From: Candidatus Rifleibacterium amylolyticum
GTDB lineage: Bacteria; Muiribacteriota; Ozemobacteria; Ozemobacterales; Ozemobacteraceae
Direction: 5' to 3'
DNA length: 64,000 nucleotides
Assembly (NCBI GenBank): GCA_009917695.1
Contig: JAACJG010000002.1
Span: 62,001 to 126,000 of the forward strand
Position numbers and translations under genes: made by a program. A model generated the notes under the pieces. That model saw nothing but the letters and a program-made list of their open reading frames with translations, was not told the origin of the DNA and searched no databases. Positions 14,941 to 22,366 of this stretch are shown piece by piece. The stretch's first letter is position 1, and every line of letters begins with the position of its first letter.

Positions 14941-17900
14941 ATGCAGTGTCCCGGATGTGGATTCGAAAACGAAAAAGATAACAAATTCTGCAATATGTGC
15001 GGAATGGGGTTGCCGGGTAGCGGCGACGCCATGGATAATCCCGCCGAAAGAGAACCTCTCGATCTCGACCTCTCGCTTGACCTTACCGATTCATCGGATC
15101 AGGCTGACTCAGCGATGTCTTTTGATCTTGACAGCAGCGAAACCGGAGGCCTCGACCTCTCGTCCGATTTTGCCGGCAGCCTTGATAAAACTGCTGAAAT
15201 GGATCTGAACCTCGGCAGTTCGGGCGAAGACACTGGTCTCGACAACGATTTCTCGCTCGATCTCGACAGCAAGACAGAGCAGACAGACGACCTGAATATT
15301 GATCTGTCTGGCGCAGAGTCCAATATGGATTTCAGCCTCGATCTCGGAAACGCCGAATCTGATGCCACTGCCCCGACTAACGATCTTGATCTCACCGCCG
15401 ACAGCCTGAATGAATCTCAGGATCTGAGCCTCAGCCTGGATGACGATGAAGACCCTTTTGCCGCGCCAAGCGGAGCCGAAATATCTCTTGAACAACCCTC
15501 TTCTGACGACTTCGACCTTACCCCGGCCGAAGAGCCGGCAACTCTTGATATAGGAACTCCGACAACATCTGAATTCGAACTTGAAGTCGACGAAAGTCCC
15601 GATACCCTGCAGATTGACGCACAGACCGCAGCTGTCGAAACCGAAAGTTTCGATTTTGGCGATCTTGACAGTGGCGTTGAATCTGAATCGGTAAACATTG
15701 AAGAAACCTCGGATGACGGCTTCGGTGATCTTATTGTCGAAACAGATTCCGGCCCGGCCGCCGATACGTTTGACGTTACCGAACCAGAGGCTGACAGCGA
15801 AGACGTCAGCTTTGACATTACCACTGAAAATGCTGAGGAATTCAACATCGATGTTGGCGACGACCTCGGCGTTACCGCGGTTGAAACTACTGAAGTCAGC
15901 CTTGATGACGAAGGCGACGACTTTCTTGATGGACTGGTTATCAGTAATGAACCGGCCCCTCCCGCCAAACCAGCCGCACAGGCCATGCCTGCCAAAAAGA
16001 CGGCTCCCGCTGCTCCAGCTAAACCGCCGGCAAAACAGCAACCTGAGCCCGTAATCGAAGAAACCGATAACGATGATGATCTCAGTAATCTGATTCTCGG
16101 AATCGAAGGCAAAGCTGCTCCGGCCAAGGCCAAAGCCTTAGAAGAGGAGCCGGTTTTCACCGAATCCGAACCAGAAACAGAAGAACTTGCCATAAGCGAA
16201 ACAGCTGACAGCGAAGACGATTTCGATATGTCGACAATAGCCGCCCTTGGCGGAACCGCACACCCGACAGTTGCATCAGAACACTCAGACAGCGAAAACA
16301 TACATGAGCCGGCTGTTCTCGAAGAAGCTCCCCCGCTTTCTCCGCTTGAACAGTTATCTGAACTCAGGCAGCTGCTTGCCGACGGCAATGACCCGGATGA
16401 GCGTTATTCTCTGGCTCTTCGCATGCGCGACCTCGGACTCAACGAGTCAGCCGGAGATTTCATAAAACTTCTGAACGACGACCTCAAAGATATCAGAGAA
16501 ATCGCAGCCGGATTTCTTGGCGATATCGCTGCCGTAGAAGCAGTCAGGCCGCTGGTTCAGTGCCTGAGCACCGATCATGCCCAGCTCAAGTTTATCGCCG
16601 CCAGAGCGCTTGGCCGCATCGGCCAGGAAGAAGCGGTTGTGCCGCTGATTAAATTACTCGAAGAAGACAATGAAGATCTGCGTTACGTCGCGCTTGAAGC
16701 CCTGGGCAAAATTGGTGCCGGTTCGGCTCTCAAGGCGGTAAGCGCATTTCTCAAGAGCCGCAACAACGACCTTCGTTACATAGCCTGCGAAGCTATCGGC
16801 AGCATTGCCGATCCGAAGTCGGTAACGGTCGTGTTGCCGATGCTTAAAGACCCCGAGTTCGAGGTTCGCCTCAAGGCAATCGAAGCTCTTGGCCGTATCG
16901 GTTCGACAGCTGCATGTGATCAACTGCTGGTAGTGCTCAGCGAAGAAAACGAGCGCATCCGCATGGCGACAATACAGGCCCTTGGCCAGATTCGCAACGC
17001 CAATGCCGTAGACCCGCTCGTCGATATCTTCCAGGTCAGCAACCCGCAGATAAAGGAAAAAATCGTCTGGGCACTCGGCGAAATCGGCGATGCACGCGCC
17101 GTCGAGCCATTGCTCAAACTTTCCAACAGTTTTAACACCAGACTCACACTTCTTGCACTTGAAGCCTTTGCCAGTATCAAATCTGCAAAAGCCAGTCGTT
17201 ACGTTCTTTCGATTCTCGAAAAAGACGATCCGATGCTGACCCTGAAAGCCATTCAGGCTCTCGGCGAAATCGGCGAAAAGGCAACCGCCGGTAACCTGGT
17301 AAAATATCTCGAAGCCAGCGAAAGCGAGCATAAAATCGCGGCCGCCAGAGCCATCGGCAAAATCGGCAACCCGATCGCCATCGAACCGCTGGTGCTTCGA
17401 CTGACCGACTCCGAACGCGATGTAAGACTGGCCGCCATCGAAGCTCTTGGCTGTATCAAAGGCGCCAAGGCAATTGAACCACTTATCCGCTCTCTCAGCG
17501 AACTTGATACTCAGATTATTGAAAAAGCGGAATGGGCGATCTGCGAAATGGGCGAAATGGCGGTTGACCAGATTACCCGAGCAATCGAAAGCGAAGAGAA
17601 TCATGCGACTCTGGTTTCGCTGGTTCGCGTGCTCGGCAAAATCGGCAGCATCAGAGCCATTTTCCCGCTGCTGAAGGTTCTTGACAGCACTGATGACAAG
17701 AAGCTCAGCCTAGTTATCGCCGACAGCCTGCTGGCAATCGACGAATTTCTGACAACTTCGAACCCGATCTCGGTCATTCTCAAAGAAGGCTACGCCTGGT
17801 CGCAGTTCTCGATCGCCCAGGCCCTGAGCACACTACAGGACGACCGTGCCTTCGCTCTACTCATCAAAATTGCCAGAGAAACCCTTACGGATAAAGACAT

Positions 17901-19233
17901 CAAAAAGCTGGCCGGCATTCCTGACCGCCGCATTCTCGAATGCAGCAGCGAAATTCTGCACCTGATCAGGCTGAATGTCGCCCATCTGTTCGCCAAGGTC
18001 GGCAACGACAAAGCTATTCCGATCATCATGAACTATTTCATCGAAAGCGACCAGGCCCAGCGCCAGTGGTGCGTTGAAGCACTCGGCGGTATCAAGACCG
18101 AAGGCGCGCTCGATGCTCTCATCGACATTCTCAAAAAGCCTGAATACCAGATTCCGCTCGAACTGCTGTCAAAACAGCTCATATCGAATCAGAGTCGCAA
18201 ACTCGTTGAGAAGCTTATTCTCGGCGCGTCACATCCGGCCGAACCAGTACGTATCGCAATTGCCACGGTGCTCGGCGACACCCGCGACCCGCGCGCAATC
18301 CGAACCCTCTCCAATCTGGTCAAAGACAGCGCAGAAAAAGTCAGAAGCGCTGCCATCGAAGCGATTGGCAAGATCGGCACAACGGCAGCGGTACAGCCCG
18401 CAATTGAAGCACTGCGCGACTCGGTCGAAACCGTGCGCGCCAAAGCTGCCGAAGTTCTTGGCGAACTCAAAGACACCGCCGCTGTCGAGTTTTTGCAGAA
18501 AACCACCAAAGACGGCTCCGAGCTGGTACGCCGGCTTGCCGTAAAATCTCTCGCCCAGATGGCAGATGCCCGCGTTCCCGATATCATTATCGCTGCACTC
18601 TCCGACAAAGCTGAGTCTGTTCGCAGCACAGCTGTGATGGTTCTCGGCGAGCGCCGCGATCGCATTGCCCTGCCCCACCTGGTCAAATCATTGGAAGACC
18701 CCGCCGAAAAGGTGCGCGAATCTGCGGCTGAAGCACTGGCCAAAATCGGTGATCCGATGGCGATCATGCCAATGCTCGGCCGCCTCGACGACCCGTCCCC
18801 GATTGTACCCCTCGCCTGCAGTGAAGCTATCGTCAGCTTCGGCGAAAATTCATACGATGTACTGATTGAAGCACTCAAGCATGCTGAAGAACGCATAAGA
18901 CGCCATGCCTGCGACATTCTCATCAGAATCGGCGAAAACAACCTGATCAACCGCCTCGTGCGCATAGCCCAGGATCGCAACAACTTCCTGCGCGAAAACA
19001 TTGCCCGCATTCTCGGCCGAATCGGTAACAGCAGCGTTGTCGAAACCCTCATGCGCATGCTTGCCGACCGCAGCAGTGCCGTGCGCAAAACTGCCGCCGA
19101 AGCTCTTGGCTCCTTGCGCGACATCAGATGTCTCGTTGCCCTCAAACAGACGACCCGCGACCAGAGCAAAGAAGTCCGTCAGGCCGCCAACATGGCACTA
19201 CAGGAGATCTTCAAGGCGCACAAACTCGCCTGA
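14941..19233 (+). CDS. Giant zinc-ribbon / acidic / HEAT-repeat protein
   Basis: A 1430-residue protein with no signal peptide, so probably cytoplasmic. Residues 3-21 form a zinc ribbon (CPGC...CNMC). Residues ~30-330 are strongly acidic and low complexity, with recurring LDLSLDL and FDL-type motifs. A Pro/Ala/Lys-rich linker lies at ~335-375, then more acidic sequence to ~465. From ~475 to the end there are about 30 HEAT (PBS-lyase type) repeats of ~31 residues, with a recurring A-x-E-A-L-G-x-I-G core. GGAGG precedes the ATG. Such proteins usually act as scaffolds. No enzyme domain is visible and the partner is unknown. A terminator follows, so it is probably monocistronic. Confidence 0.9.
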   Translation: MQCPGCGFENEKDNKFCNMCGMGLPGSGDAMDNPAEREPLDLDLSLDLTDSSDQADSAMSFDLDSSETGGLDLSSDFAGSLDKTAEMDLNLGSSGEDTGLDNDFSLDLDSKTEQTDDLNIDLSGAESNMDFSLDLGNAESDATAPTNDLDLTADSLNESQDLSLSLDDDEDPFAAPSGAEISLEQPSSDDFDLTPAEEPATLDIGTPTTSEFELEVDESPDTLQIDAQTAAVETESFDFGDLDSGVESESVNIEETSDDGFGDLIVETDSGPAADTFDVTEPEADSEDVSFDITTENAEEFNIDVGDDLGVTAVETTEVSLDDEGDDFLDGLVISNEPAPPAKPAAQAMPAKKTAPAAPAKPPAKQQPEPVIEETDNDDDLSNLILGIEGKAAPAKAKALEEEPVFTESEPETEELAISETADSEDDFDMSTIAALGGTAHPTVASEHSDSENIHEPAVLEEAPPLSPLEQLSELRQLLADGNDPDERYSLALRMRDLGLNESAGDFIKLLNDDLKDIREIAAGFLGDIAAVEAVRPLVQCLSTDHAQLKFIAARALGRIGQEEAVVPLIKLLEEDNEDLRYVALEALGKIGAGSALKAVSAFLKSRNNDLRYIACEAIGSIADPKSVTVVLPMLKDPEFEVRLKAIEALGRIGSTAACDQLLVVLSEENERIRMATIQALGQIRNANAVDPLVDIFQVSNPQIKEKIVWALGEIGDARAVEPLLKLSNSFNTRLTLLALEAFASIKSAKASRYVLSILEKDDPMLTLKAIQALGEIGEKATAGNLVKYLEASESEHKIAAARAIGKIGNPIAIEPLVLRLTDSERDVRLAAIEALGCIKGAKAIEPLIRSLSELDTQIIEKAEWAICEMGEMAVDQITRAIESEENHATLVSLVRVLGKIGSIRAIFPLLKVLDSTDDKKLSLVIADSLLAIDEFLTTSNPISVILKEGYAWSQFSIAQALSTLQDDRAFALLIKIARETLTDKDIKKLAGIPDRRILECSSEILHLIRLNVAHLFAKVGNDKAIPIIMNYFIESDQAQRQWCVEALGGIKTEGALDALIDILKKPEYQIPLELLSKQLISNQSRKLVEKLILGASHPAEPVRIAIATVLGDTRDPRAIRTLSNLVKDSAEKVRSAAIEAIGKIGTTAAVQPAIEALRDSVETVRAKAAEVLGELKDTAAVEFLQKTTKDGSELVRRLAVKSLAQMADARVPDIIIAALSDKAESVRSTAVMVLGERRDRIALPHLVKSLEDPAEKVRESAAEALAKIGDPMAIMPMLGRLDDPSPIVPLACSEAIVSFGENSYDVLIEALKHAEERIRRHACDILIRIGENNLINRLVRIAQDRNNFLRENIARILGRIGNSSVVETLMRMLADRSSAVRKTAAEALGSLRDIRCLVALKQTTRDQSKEVRQAANMALQEIFKAHKLA

Positions 19234-19246
19234 TCCGTACCCAACG

Positions 19247-19279
19247 CCGGGAAAGAGCGCACGCCCTTTCCCGGTTTTT
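19247..19279 (+). terminator. Rho-independent terminator after the HEAT-repeat gene
   Basis: CCGGGAAAG (19247-19255) pairs with CTTTCCCGG (19266-19274) around a 10-base loop, followed by five T. Confidence 0.9.
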
Positions 19280-19611
19280 CTTTGCCAGTTTTTGCCAAAC
19301 CTGTGCAGATGTTTCTCGTGAAACCGAAATCCGCCTCTAGCGAGGCTATTTTTGTTGATAATTTTTCACGGCCCAGATCTTGAATTATGTAAACCAAACA
19401 ATTGAGCTGGCAAGGGTGACTGCACTAAAAATCTGGATTTATTCATACATATAGAGAACGTGGGCGGGCGTTCTCCTCTGTTAACTGAGATTCGCTGCGA
19501 AATCATTTGCCATGTCGCATGGTTGGAAGTATGTTTATAGTGTAGTGTTTTACTGAAATTCAGGCCAGATGGCGCAGCTAAAGCGCTCATGTGTATGGAG
19601 GTGGTAAAAAT
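19280..19611. other. Leader/intergenic region before the aminotransferase-like gene
   Basis: No gene is seen. The first half is AT-rich. A GAACG...CGTTC hairpin lies near 19455-19472. A candidate promoter is at 19507-19535. The leader from there to the start codon is about 70 bases. I looked for known riboswitch cores and could not support one. Confidence 0.5.
19507..19535 (+). promoter_or_regulatory. Candidate promoter for the aminotransferase-like gene
   Basis: TTGCCA (19507-19512), a 17-base spacer and TATGTT (19530-19535). Confidence 0.4.
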
Positions 19612-20820
19612 ATGCGTGATTTTCTGATGCGACCAATGTCAGTATTACCATGTTCGCGCAATCTCACCTTTGTACGCGCTGACGCCTGCAATCTTTACGA
19701 CAGCGACGGCAGATCCTACATCGATACCTTTGCCGCCAACGGCAACGTTCTGGCCGGCCATGCCCAGCCGCTGATTCTCGAAGCATATAACCAGCCCGAC
19801 GAAATGTCGCCACAGATACTTTTCGATGACCTCAGCCAGCTGCTGCCCAGCTATTTCACCGGATTTCAGCTGTTTCCATCAGGAGTTGCCGCCCTGCAGC
19901 AGGCCTGTCGACTGTCACGCAAACGCCGCAATCGCCCACACATAATTGCCATCTCTGAAGACATGGTGCAAAATTCATTTCTGGTCATGTCATCTTCTGA
20001 TAACAATCATTTTTCGCCATTATTCTCGATAGACACACATTTCGAGCTGATCAGCCACAATCTCAGCCATCCCCCGGTAACCGGCGACAAAAAACTTTCA
20101 CAACTGGGAAAATCGTGCAAAGGCGCATGTCTGTGCTCGCTTGAAAACTTTTTTGCCGAGCTGGCCGACCAGACAGCTGCCATAATAATCGAACCCTCTA
20201 TTGGAGTGGGAGGCTCGATCGAACCCTGCCGAAATTTTTTCGGCCGCCTCAACGAATTCTGTCTGGCCTCAGGCATAGATCTGATCGCTAACGAAACCCA
20301 GTGCGGTATTGGCCGTACCGGTAGTCGCCTGTTCGGCTTCCAGCTGCTCAATATACACCCGGACATCGTCTGCGCCGGACCCAGCATTGCCAATGGCTAC
20401 CCGATCGGCGTTGCTATCTATGCCGATCACTTTGCCGACCTCGTCGAGAAGGTCACTAAAACAGCCTGTTCAGCCTGTTCTGCCGCAAGCGCTACTCTCA
20501 AACTTATTGCCGAGCAGAACCTGTTAAGGCGCTCCGAGCAGCTGGGCCTGTTTTTGCGTGAGCGACTGCATGAGGCTCTTGGCAATCACCCGCTGCTGCG
20601 CCATATTCGCGGTCTCGGTCTGATGATTGAAGTTGAACTGATAAACCAGGAATCAGCCCTGGCGACGCATCATCGCGCCAGCCGGGCTGGCCTTATCACC
20701 GGCACCGGCAATGTCAGACCCGGTATTCTGCGTCTGACCCCGCCGTTGATTTTTACTGCCGACATGGCCGAAGAAACAGTTAGAATTCTGGTAGACGCCA
20801 TCGCTTCATCTGACGACTGA
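19612..20820 (+). CDS. Class III aminotransferase-fold protein lacking PLP residues
   Basis: The 402-residue sequence follows the fold of class III (acetylornithine/GSA-type) aminotransferases end to end: NLYDSDGRSYIDTFAANGNVLAGHA, IIIEPSIGVGG, GIGRTGSRLFGF, PDIV...NGYPIGV, RGLGLMIEVEL. The key PLP contacts are changed. The Asp of the family DE-x-Q-x-G-x-GRTG motif is Asn227. The Schiff-base Lys expected in the AKG-type motif is Pro257 (GPSIANGYP). The G-T/S-E-A phosphate-binding turn is also degenerate (FPSGVAALQQA). The frame is intact, so this is probably a pseudoenzyme, not a decaying pseudogene. GGAGGTGG precedes the ATG. A GTG at 19591 is possible but less likely. Confidence 0.85.
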   Translation: MRDFLMRPMSVLPCSRNLTFVRADACNLYDSDGRSYIDTFAANGNVLAGHAQPLILEAYNQPDEMSPQILFDDLSQLLPSYFTGFQLFPSGVAALQQACRLSRKRRNRPHIIAISEDMVQNSFLVMSSSDNNHFSPLFSIDTHFELISHNLSHPPVTGDKKLSQLGKSCKGACLCSLENFFAELADQTAAIIIEPSIGVGGSIEPCRNFFGRLNEFCLASGIDLIANETQCGIGRTGSRLFGFQLLNIHPDIVCAGPSIANGYPIGVAIYADHFADLVEKVTKTACSACSAASATLKLIAEQNLLRRSEQLGLFLRERLHEALGNHPLLRHIRGLGLMIEVELINQESALATHHRASRAGLITGTGNVRPGILRLTPPLIFTADMAEETVRILVDAIASSDD

Positions 20821-20950: not shown

Positions 20951-22366
20951 ATGGAAATCAAGTTTGGGACATCTGGCTGGCGCGCGATTATCGCTGATGA
21001 ATTCACTTTTGCCAACGTGCGCATCTGTACCCAGGCGATAGCTGACCATCTCAGAAGCATTGGCCAGACCCAGGGCGTAATAATCGGCTCTGACGCCCGC
21101 TTCATGTCTTCGCGCTTCATGGAAGTCGCTGCCGAAATCTTCGCCGGCAACGACATCAAGGCTTATCTCTGCACCCGTGACACGCCGACTCCGGTCATCA
21201 GTTTTGAAATTCTCAGACGTAAGCTTTCCGGCGGCATAAATTTTACCGCCAGCCACAATCCGCCAGAATATCAGGGCCTCAAGTTTTCACCGGCCTGGGG
21301 CGGCCCGGCTCTGCCGGAAACCACCAGCGATATCGAAAAGCGTGCCAACGAAATCATGAAGAATGGCAACGTAAAAAAACTGCCACTCCAGGAAGCTCTG
21401 GAAAAGGGCCTGATCGAAAAAATAAACCCGATGAATACCTATCTTGACGAATTGCGCCGCAAAATCAACCTTGCTGCAATCAAAGCCGCAAATCTCAAGA
21501 TTCTCGTCAACCCGCTGTACGGAACTGCCCGCGGCTACCTCGACCAGATTCTCAAAGAGGCAGGCTGCGAAGTTACCGTCATGAACGACAACCTTGATCC
21601 ATACTTCGGCAATCAGCCACCAGAACCATCTGAAGCTCATATCCCCGATATGATCGCCCGCATGAAACAGGGCAATTTCGATCTTGGACTGGCTACCGAC
21701 GGCGATGCCGACCGCTTTGGTGTGCTTGGTCCGAATGGCAGATTCTACGAACCAAATCAGATACTCGGCATGCTTCTCGACCATCTCAAGACCACTCGCG
21801 ACTGGCCAGGTGCGGCAGCCAGATCTGTTGCCACTTCGCACCTCGTCGATGCAGTGGCAAAGCATCATAAAATCGAGCTCATCGAGACAGCCGTCGGCTT
21901 CAAGTTTCTCGGCGATCTGATCGCACACGACAAAATCATCATGGGCGGCGAAGAATCTGCCGGCATGAGCATTCGCGGCCATGTTCCCGAGAAAGACGGC
22001 ATTATCGCCTGCCTGCTCGTTGCCGAAATGGTAGCCATGCAGAAAAAGCCAATTGCACAGATCCTCGACGACCTCTACGCCAAGGTTGGCACCTACCTGA
22101 CCCGACGCGTCAATTTCCGACTGACTGAAGCTGAAAAGGCCAAAGCTGTCGCCAATATGAAGAATGACCCCAAAGAAGTTGCCGGGTACAAGGTGAAACA
22201 GGTCGTCAGAATCGATGGTACCAAGTGCATTCTTGAAAACGACGCATGGGTTCTCGTCAGGTTTTCAGGCACCGAACCAGTCGTGCGATTCTACGCCGAA
22301 GCCCACGATGAAGCCACCCTCGACCAGCTTTGCAGCCAGGGCGAAACCTTCGTAAAAGGCGCCTGA
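20951..22366 (+). CDS. Phosphoglucomutase/phosphomannomutase family protein
   Basis: Alpha-D-phosphohexomutase, 471 residues, of the archaeal/PgcA-like glucomutase branch. Motifs: FGTSGWRAII at the start, the phosphoserine loop TASHNPPEYQG, the metal loop TDGDADRFG, GGEESAGMS for sugar binding, and RFSGTEPVVRFY for phosphate binding. It differs clearly from the ManB-like gene at 7209-8567, so the two probably serve different sugars. The ATG at 20951 has GGAGG directly upstream. It is followed by a strong terminator, which indicates a single-gene transcript. Confidence 0.88.
   Translation: MEIKFGTSGWRAIIADEFTFANVRICTQAIADHLRSIGQTQGVIIGSDARFMSSRFMEVAAEIFAGNDIKAYLCTRDTPTPVISFEILRRKLSGGINFTASHNPPEYQGLKFSPAWGGPALPETTSDIEKRANEIMKNGNVKKLPLQEALEKGLIEKINPMNTYLDELRRKINLAAIKAANLKILVNPLYGTARGYLDQILKEAGCEVTVMNDNLDPYFGNQPPEPSEAHIPDMIARMKQGNFDLGLATDGDADRFGVLGPNGRFYEPNQILGMLLDHLKTTRDWPGAAARSVATSHLVDAVAKHHKIELIETAVGFKFLGDLIAHDKIIMGGEESAGMSIRGHVPEKDGIIACLLVAEMVAMQKKPIAQILDDLYAKVGTYLTRRVNFRLTEAEKAKAVANMKNDPKEVAGYKVKQVVRIDGTKCILENDAWVLVRFSGTEPVVRFYAEAHDEATLDQLCSQGETFVKGA

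Follow-up and report, generated by a model that had tools for sequence, protein, structure and literature searches.

We asked what kind of protein is encoded by a single frame, at 19612-20820, of the window (the whole stretch of 64,000 nucleotides that was analysed). The first-pass annotation had described the product as a class III aminotransferase homologue in which the PLP lysine and the PLP-N1 aspartate are replaced, and had read it as an intact pseudoenzyme. Such a gene could be decaying, could encode an enzyme of altered chemistry or a dead partner of an active one, or could have taken on another job.

Gene and predicted fold

19612..20820, + strand: pseudo-aminotransferase open reading frame, 402 aa, class III fold (PF00202, Foldseek)
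19597..19604, + strand: ribosome-binding site GGAGGTGG, 7 nt 5' of ATG 19612 (read directly)

The frame is open throughout, as first described, and starts at ATG 19612, 3' of GGAGGTGG. Residues 18-397 match PF00202 (Aminotran_3) with E=1e-53 and 183 bits, against a curated cut-off of 30.5, and none of the NCBIfam equivalogs scored above its own cut-off for this product. AlphaFold2 returned a model with pLDDT 79 and pTM 0.81 from 50 sequences, and pLDDT 47 from the six orthologues alone. A Foldseek search with the model retrieved class III enzymes (7jh3 and others; E about 1e-28, TM about 0.8), a match that is supportive rather than independent because the input alignment consisted of class III sequences. 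By profile and model, the predicted fold is that of class III (fold-type I). Residues 118-175, the expected place of the F/Y-H-G motif, are modelled unreliably.

Fate of the cofactor site

20290..20292, + strand: codon of Asn227, where the family has the PLP-N1 Asp (D239 in E. coli GabT; alignments)
20380..20382, + strand: codon of Pro257, where the family has the Schiff-base Lys (K268 in E. coli GabT; alignments)
19960..19983, + strand: residues 117-124 (DMVQNSFL), replacing the family G-[FY]-H-G-x-T motif (alignment)
20458..20490, + strand: residues 283-293 (KTACSACSAAS), replacing S-T-F-G-G-N-P, with GGNP deleted (alignment)
19804..19809, + strand: 14 residues missing after residue 65 by comparison with every active relative aligned
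20731..20733, + strand: codon of Arg374 (LRLTPPL), an Arg conserved in the family and retained here (alignment)

In a profile alignment with E. coli GabT (1SF2), Asn227 falls on chain residue 239 (Asp) and Pro257 on residue 268 (Lys), as counted from the printed alignment. We take D239 to be the N1 Asp of GabT and K268 its Schiff-base Lys. Our main comparison aligned six orthologues, hereafter the clade, with a set of 43 other class III sequences drawn from both related and distant genomes, one further homologue (L012, see below) being set apart. Asp and Lys occupy the two positions in 43/43 of the other proteins and Asn and Pro in 6/6 clade members, so the pattern is not a matter of chance. 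Both substitutions (codons at 20290 and 20380) thus lie where they had been placed. The sequence alignment offers no replacement lysine at the Schiff-base position; K160 and K167 are the sole invariant Lys among the five full-length members, and both sit in a poorly modelled segment.

The changes extend well beyond these two residues. Positions that are strictly or nearly invariant in the 43 proteins and altered in the clade comprise E93, H119, G120, T122, D227, K257, T286, Q62 and the whole G-G-N-P; among positions held less strictly by the family, G25, G33, E194 and R333 are altered. Retained are D30, D38, G49, H50, G91, P195, G198, G201, E228, G232, G234, R235, G237, F241, P250, G262, P264, G334, G336, G360, R374, P377 and P378, together with D251, which is Asn in the sixth species. 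The lost family-invariant positions are mostly cofactor contacts, whereas structural Gly and Pro, E228, R235 and R374 stay. In the class III family, the G-[FY]-H-G-x-T motif stacks on PLP, and the Thr-Phe-Gly-Gly-Asn-Pro loop acts in trans, reaching across the dimer to hold the phosphate of PLP. All five full-length members have Cys or Ser for the Thr of this loop and lack GGNP. An altered phosphate-binding turn had also been proposed; its first residues, Ser90-Gly91, are in fact intact, and what is lost is Glu93, the F/Y-H-G-x-T motif (H119, G120, T122) and the trans loop (T286 changed, GGNP deleted).

Compared with acetylornithine, GABA and ornithine aminotransferases and class III racemases, the clade thus shares the fold, most backbone Gly and Pro, the E-x-Q-x-G-x-G-R-T-G motif and the Arg of R-x-x-P-P-L. 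It differs from them in having no Schiff-base Lys, N1 Asp, F/Y-H-G motif or trans phosphate loop, and in the 14-residue deletion in its N-terminal part. Residue by residue, these losses point to a cofactor site dismantled as a whole around a scaffold that stayed, including Arg374, the counterpart of the family's substrate-carboxylate-binding Arg. Judged by the alignments, the loss covers most of the cofactor-binding parts. From what is known of fold-type I enzymes, a protein lacking the Lys, the N1 Asp and the phosphate loop is very unlikely to carry out PLP chemistry.

Distribution and selection

Each of the genus's six species (Ca. Riflebacteria MAGs) has the gene, at 66-85% identity, and all six products carry N227 and P257, so the substitutions are conserved across a clade, as the first-pass annotation had suggested might be checked. 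All six genomes are metagenome assemblies, and the L038 copy is cut by a contig end, which leaves five full-length members. The contig of that copy (SABV01000024.1) is titled 'Erysipelotrichia bacterium'; its genes are 47-81% identical to those of this Riflebacteria genus, in conserved order, and it is probably misnamed. No orthologue was found among 34 other genomes of the phylum that were searched, and two clade-conserved peptides, used to scan 84,980 species, matched nothing beyond the five congeners and a pair of very distant proteins (22-23% identity). Every homologue with the normal residues is 36% identical or less.

The dN/dS ratio among congeners is 0.06-0.10 for most pairs with measurable dS, and 0.11 and 0.18 in two pairs involving the most distant species. 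The neighbouring HEAT-repeat gene gives similar values (0.08-0.11) and the neighbouring mutase gene lower ones (0.03-0.04). When neutral drift was simulated to the observed divergence, copies accumulated a mean of about 17 stops, and none of the 500 runs gave fewer than 5; the clade copies have no stops. A maximum-likelihood tree groups the six as one clade (100/100); its stem measures 2.31 changes per site, and the branches within the clade measure 0.06-0.34. The very long stem and short inner branches argue for a burst of change followed by constraint: on the tree and the substitution rates, catalysis is what was lost first, and the protein was constrained again afterwards. GC content of the gene (53.3%) equals that of its neighbours, and recent lateral transfer therefore lacks a compositional sign.

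A loss fixed across species in a protein under purifying selection places the clade among conserved pseudoenzymes. We consider it likely that its members are catalytically dead, and very probably PLP-free, homologues of class III aminotransferases. The proposal of an intact pseudoenzyme is strongly supported by these data, and the gain of another role would follow from selection on a protein unable to use PLP in the usual way.

Active relatives and a second loss

The closest relatives, L010, L011 and L041, come from other genera of Riflebacteria, are 33-36% identical to the clade and keep all catalytic residues. They share with it Cys26, Cys99, Cys254 and part of a CxxC...CxxxC segment. A metal site formed by H149/H153/C169/C173 in place of this segment was considered and rejected as not general, since the sixth species has A150/N153/P169.

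Unlike the clade genes, those of the three relatives stand beside genes for a SPASM-type radical SAM maturase-like protein and an AmmeMemoSam radical SAM protein and an ORF of 97-107 aa. This radical-SAM/class III aminotransferase set is conserved in other Riflebacteria genera (L047:7610-12991, L044:8914-13080, L045:7052-11535) and is possibly an undescribed peptide- or metabolite-modifying cluster; its short ORF has no Pfam match and ends in ...DDRAYYPTE-F. A retained radical-SAM partner of the clade protein was also considered and rejected: the window's genome holds no relative of the SPASM maturase-like gene, an empty result and as such a weak one.

L012, from a genome of another genus in the same family (G010), has Ser for the Asp and Asn for the Lys in an intact ORF. 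Unlike the clade, it keeps H-G, Glu93 and the GGNP loop. It groups with the active L010 (94/94) and sits on a long branch (1.1 versus 0.26). By its residues and its place in the tree, L012 is a separate and independent double loss, known from one genome. Its gene (L043:9259-10614) adjoins a nitroreductase-family gene, and a congener (G017) has an active copy at that place.

Gene neighbourhood

14941..19233, + strand: upstream neighbour, HEAT-repeat protein with zinc-ribbon-like N-terminus, syntenic
19247..19279, + strand: intrinsic terminator-like hairpin CCGGGAAAG...CTTTCCCGG-TTTTT between the HEAT gene and the pseudo-aminotransferase gene (read directly)
19507..19535, + strand: promoter-like TTGCCA-17-TATGTT 5' of the pseudo-aminotransferase gene, recurring in other species including L037
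20884-20912: the mutase gene's own conserved promoter-like TTGCCT-17-TTAAAC
20951..22366, + strand: downstream neighbour, phosphoglucomutase/phosphomannomutase

As far as the congeners' contigs reach, they keep the order RecJ, ComFB-like, HEAT, pseudo-aminotransferase, phosphomannomutase. The mutase gene comes straight after the HEAT gene in a sister genus (G009, L062), where the site is empty. Judged by this gene order, the pseudo-aminotransferase gene is an insertion between the HEAT-repeat and phosphomannomutase genes.

The terminator-like hairpin 3' of the HEAT gene, which an automated scan with a loop limit of 8 had missed, occurs in the window and in most congeners. In one congener (L037:3314-5126), genes for a HindVP-like restriction endonuclease and a C5 methylase separate the pseudo-aminotransferase gene from the mutase gene, which argues against an operon. 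Together, the hairpin, the separate promoter-like elements and the restriction-modification insertion led us to reject an operon with the HEAT or mutase gene, and the gene, best read as monocistronic, appears to have a promoter-like element of its own. A partner gene for the pseudo-aminotransferase was looked for and not found, and Rfam yielded no RNA element.

The interval between the HEAT and pseudo-aminotransferase genes also contains a parS-like palindrome, GTTTCTCGTGAAAC, at 19311-19324 of the window. We take the consensus of the ParB site parS to be TGTTTCACGTGAAACA. All six species have a parS-like palindrome at this position, in forms that include GTTTCCCGTGAAAC and GTTTCATGTGAAAC, and a variant, GTTTCTTGGGAAAC, occurs at the empty site of the sister genus.

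Possible roles of the protein

We propose that the clade protein arose once, in the common ancestor of the genus, and that its source was the aminotransferase subfamily found beside radical-SAM genes in sister genera. Its PLP site would have been dismantled in the burst of change, and the product kept under purifying selection afterwards. The protein may fold as a class III-type dimer and may work by binding instead of catalysis. Residues 195-206 and 230-254 and the clade-specific runs FLMRPMS, PLFSIDTHFEL and GACLCSLE stand above the clade average in conservation. The retained scaffold, with Arg374, and the clade segments FLMRPMS-LPCSR (N-terminal), PLFSIDTHFEL and GACLCSLE could bind a small carboxylate or a protein partner. 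The former PLP contacts show no extra conservation within the clade (7/14 are invariant, a level reached in 78% of random draws); being no better conserved than the average site, they lend no support to ligand binding in the old pocket.

The best-surviving alternative is a dead subunit of a hetero-oligomer that pairs with an active class III paralogue, HemL or HemL-like, and stabilises or regulates it. There is precedent for this in SPTLC1, the non-catalytic subunit of serine palmitoyltransferase (SPT), a fold-type I protein without the Lys that works with SPTLC2. Class III enzymes form dimers whose subunits share active sites, and HemL and HemL-like paralogues are present in the genus, with their Lys intact in the window's genome. 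However, these two are the only other class III proteins of that genome and belong to the GSA-aminomutase branch, a different subfamily from the clade protein; SPTLC1 has SPTLC2, whereas a close active paralogue, or any partner of the same subfamily, is absent here. Nor does the gene share an operon with either. Moreover, the GGNP loop and the N-terminal stretch that aminotransferases lend to their partner's active site are both deleted, so the clade protein could not complete a partner's site. We regard pairing of this kind as unlikely.

Less likely again is an enzyme of altered chemistry that uses PMP or another cofactor and dispenses with the Lys. The 3-dehydratases ColD, E1 and SpnQ are real fold-type I enzymes that have His for the catalytic Lys and bind PMP (PMC8987622). 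The clade protein also lacks the catalytic Lys and keeps Ser90-Gly91, Gln230, Arg374 and, in 5/6 members, Glu194. It differs in having Pro, which supplies no acid/base group, and Asn for the N1 Asp, in a dismantled cofactor site that lacks the phosphate loop and the F/Y-H-G motif and whose former contacts are not specially conserved. A decaying pseudogene or an assembly error in a single MAG is barely credible, even with all sequences drawn from metagenome assemblies and one copy ending at a contig edge, given six concordant independent assemblies free of the stops that the neutral simulation produced in every run, and a dN/dS that lies at 0.06-0.10 in most pairs whose dS exceeds 0.8; on these comparisons the clade is a real conserved pseudoenzyme, neither artefact nor decaying gene.

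Since Pro cannot replace the chemistry of His and the partner-completing segments are deleted, a stand-alone binding or regulatory role is favoured, and we put it forward tentatively. In its more specific form, which we hold with similar reserve, the clade protein could be a stand-alone regulator or sensor that works without PLP and whose remodelled dimer binds either a protein or a carboxylate metabolite. That this genus-wide protein has a new, non-catalytic job is very probable.

Significance

Kinases and other folds include well-known pseudoenzymes. For class III aminotransferases, we found no paper on a pseudoenzyme in the open-access literature, subscription journals lying largely outside the search. 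With active cousins at 36% identity, an origin within one genus, a sister genus whose insertion site is empty and a second loss that happened independently, the clade offers a tidy system for learning what an aminotransferase scaffold can do without its cofactor. The case also calls for caution in annotation, as profile searches label the clade protein an aminotransferase with high confidence. Given the second loss, in L012, conversions of this kind would come readily to this aminotransferase subfamily. If the clade protein is indeed a regulator or sensor that works without PLP, it would represent a new functional class for the class III aminotransferase fold.
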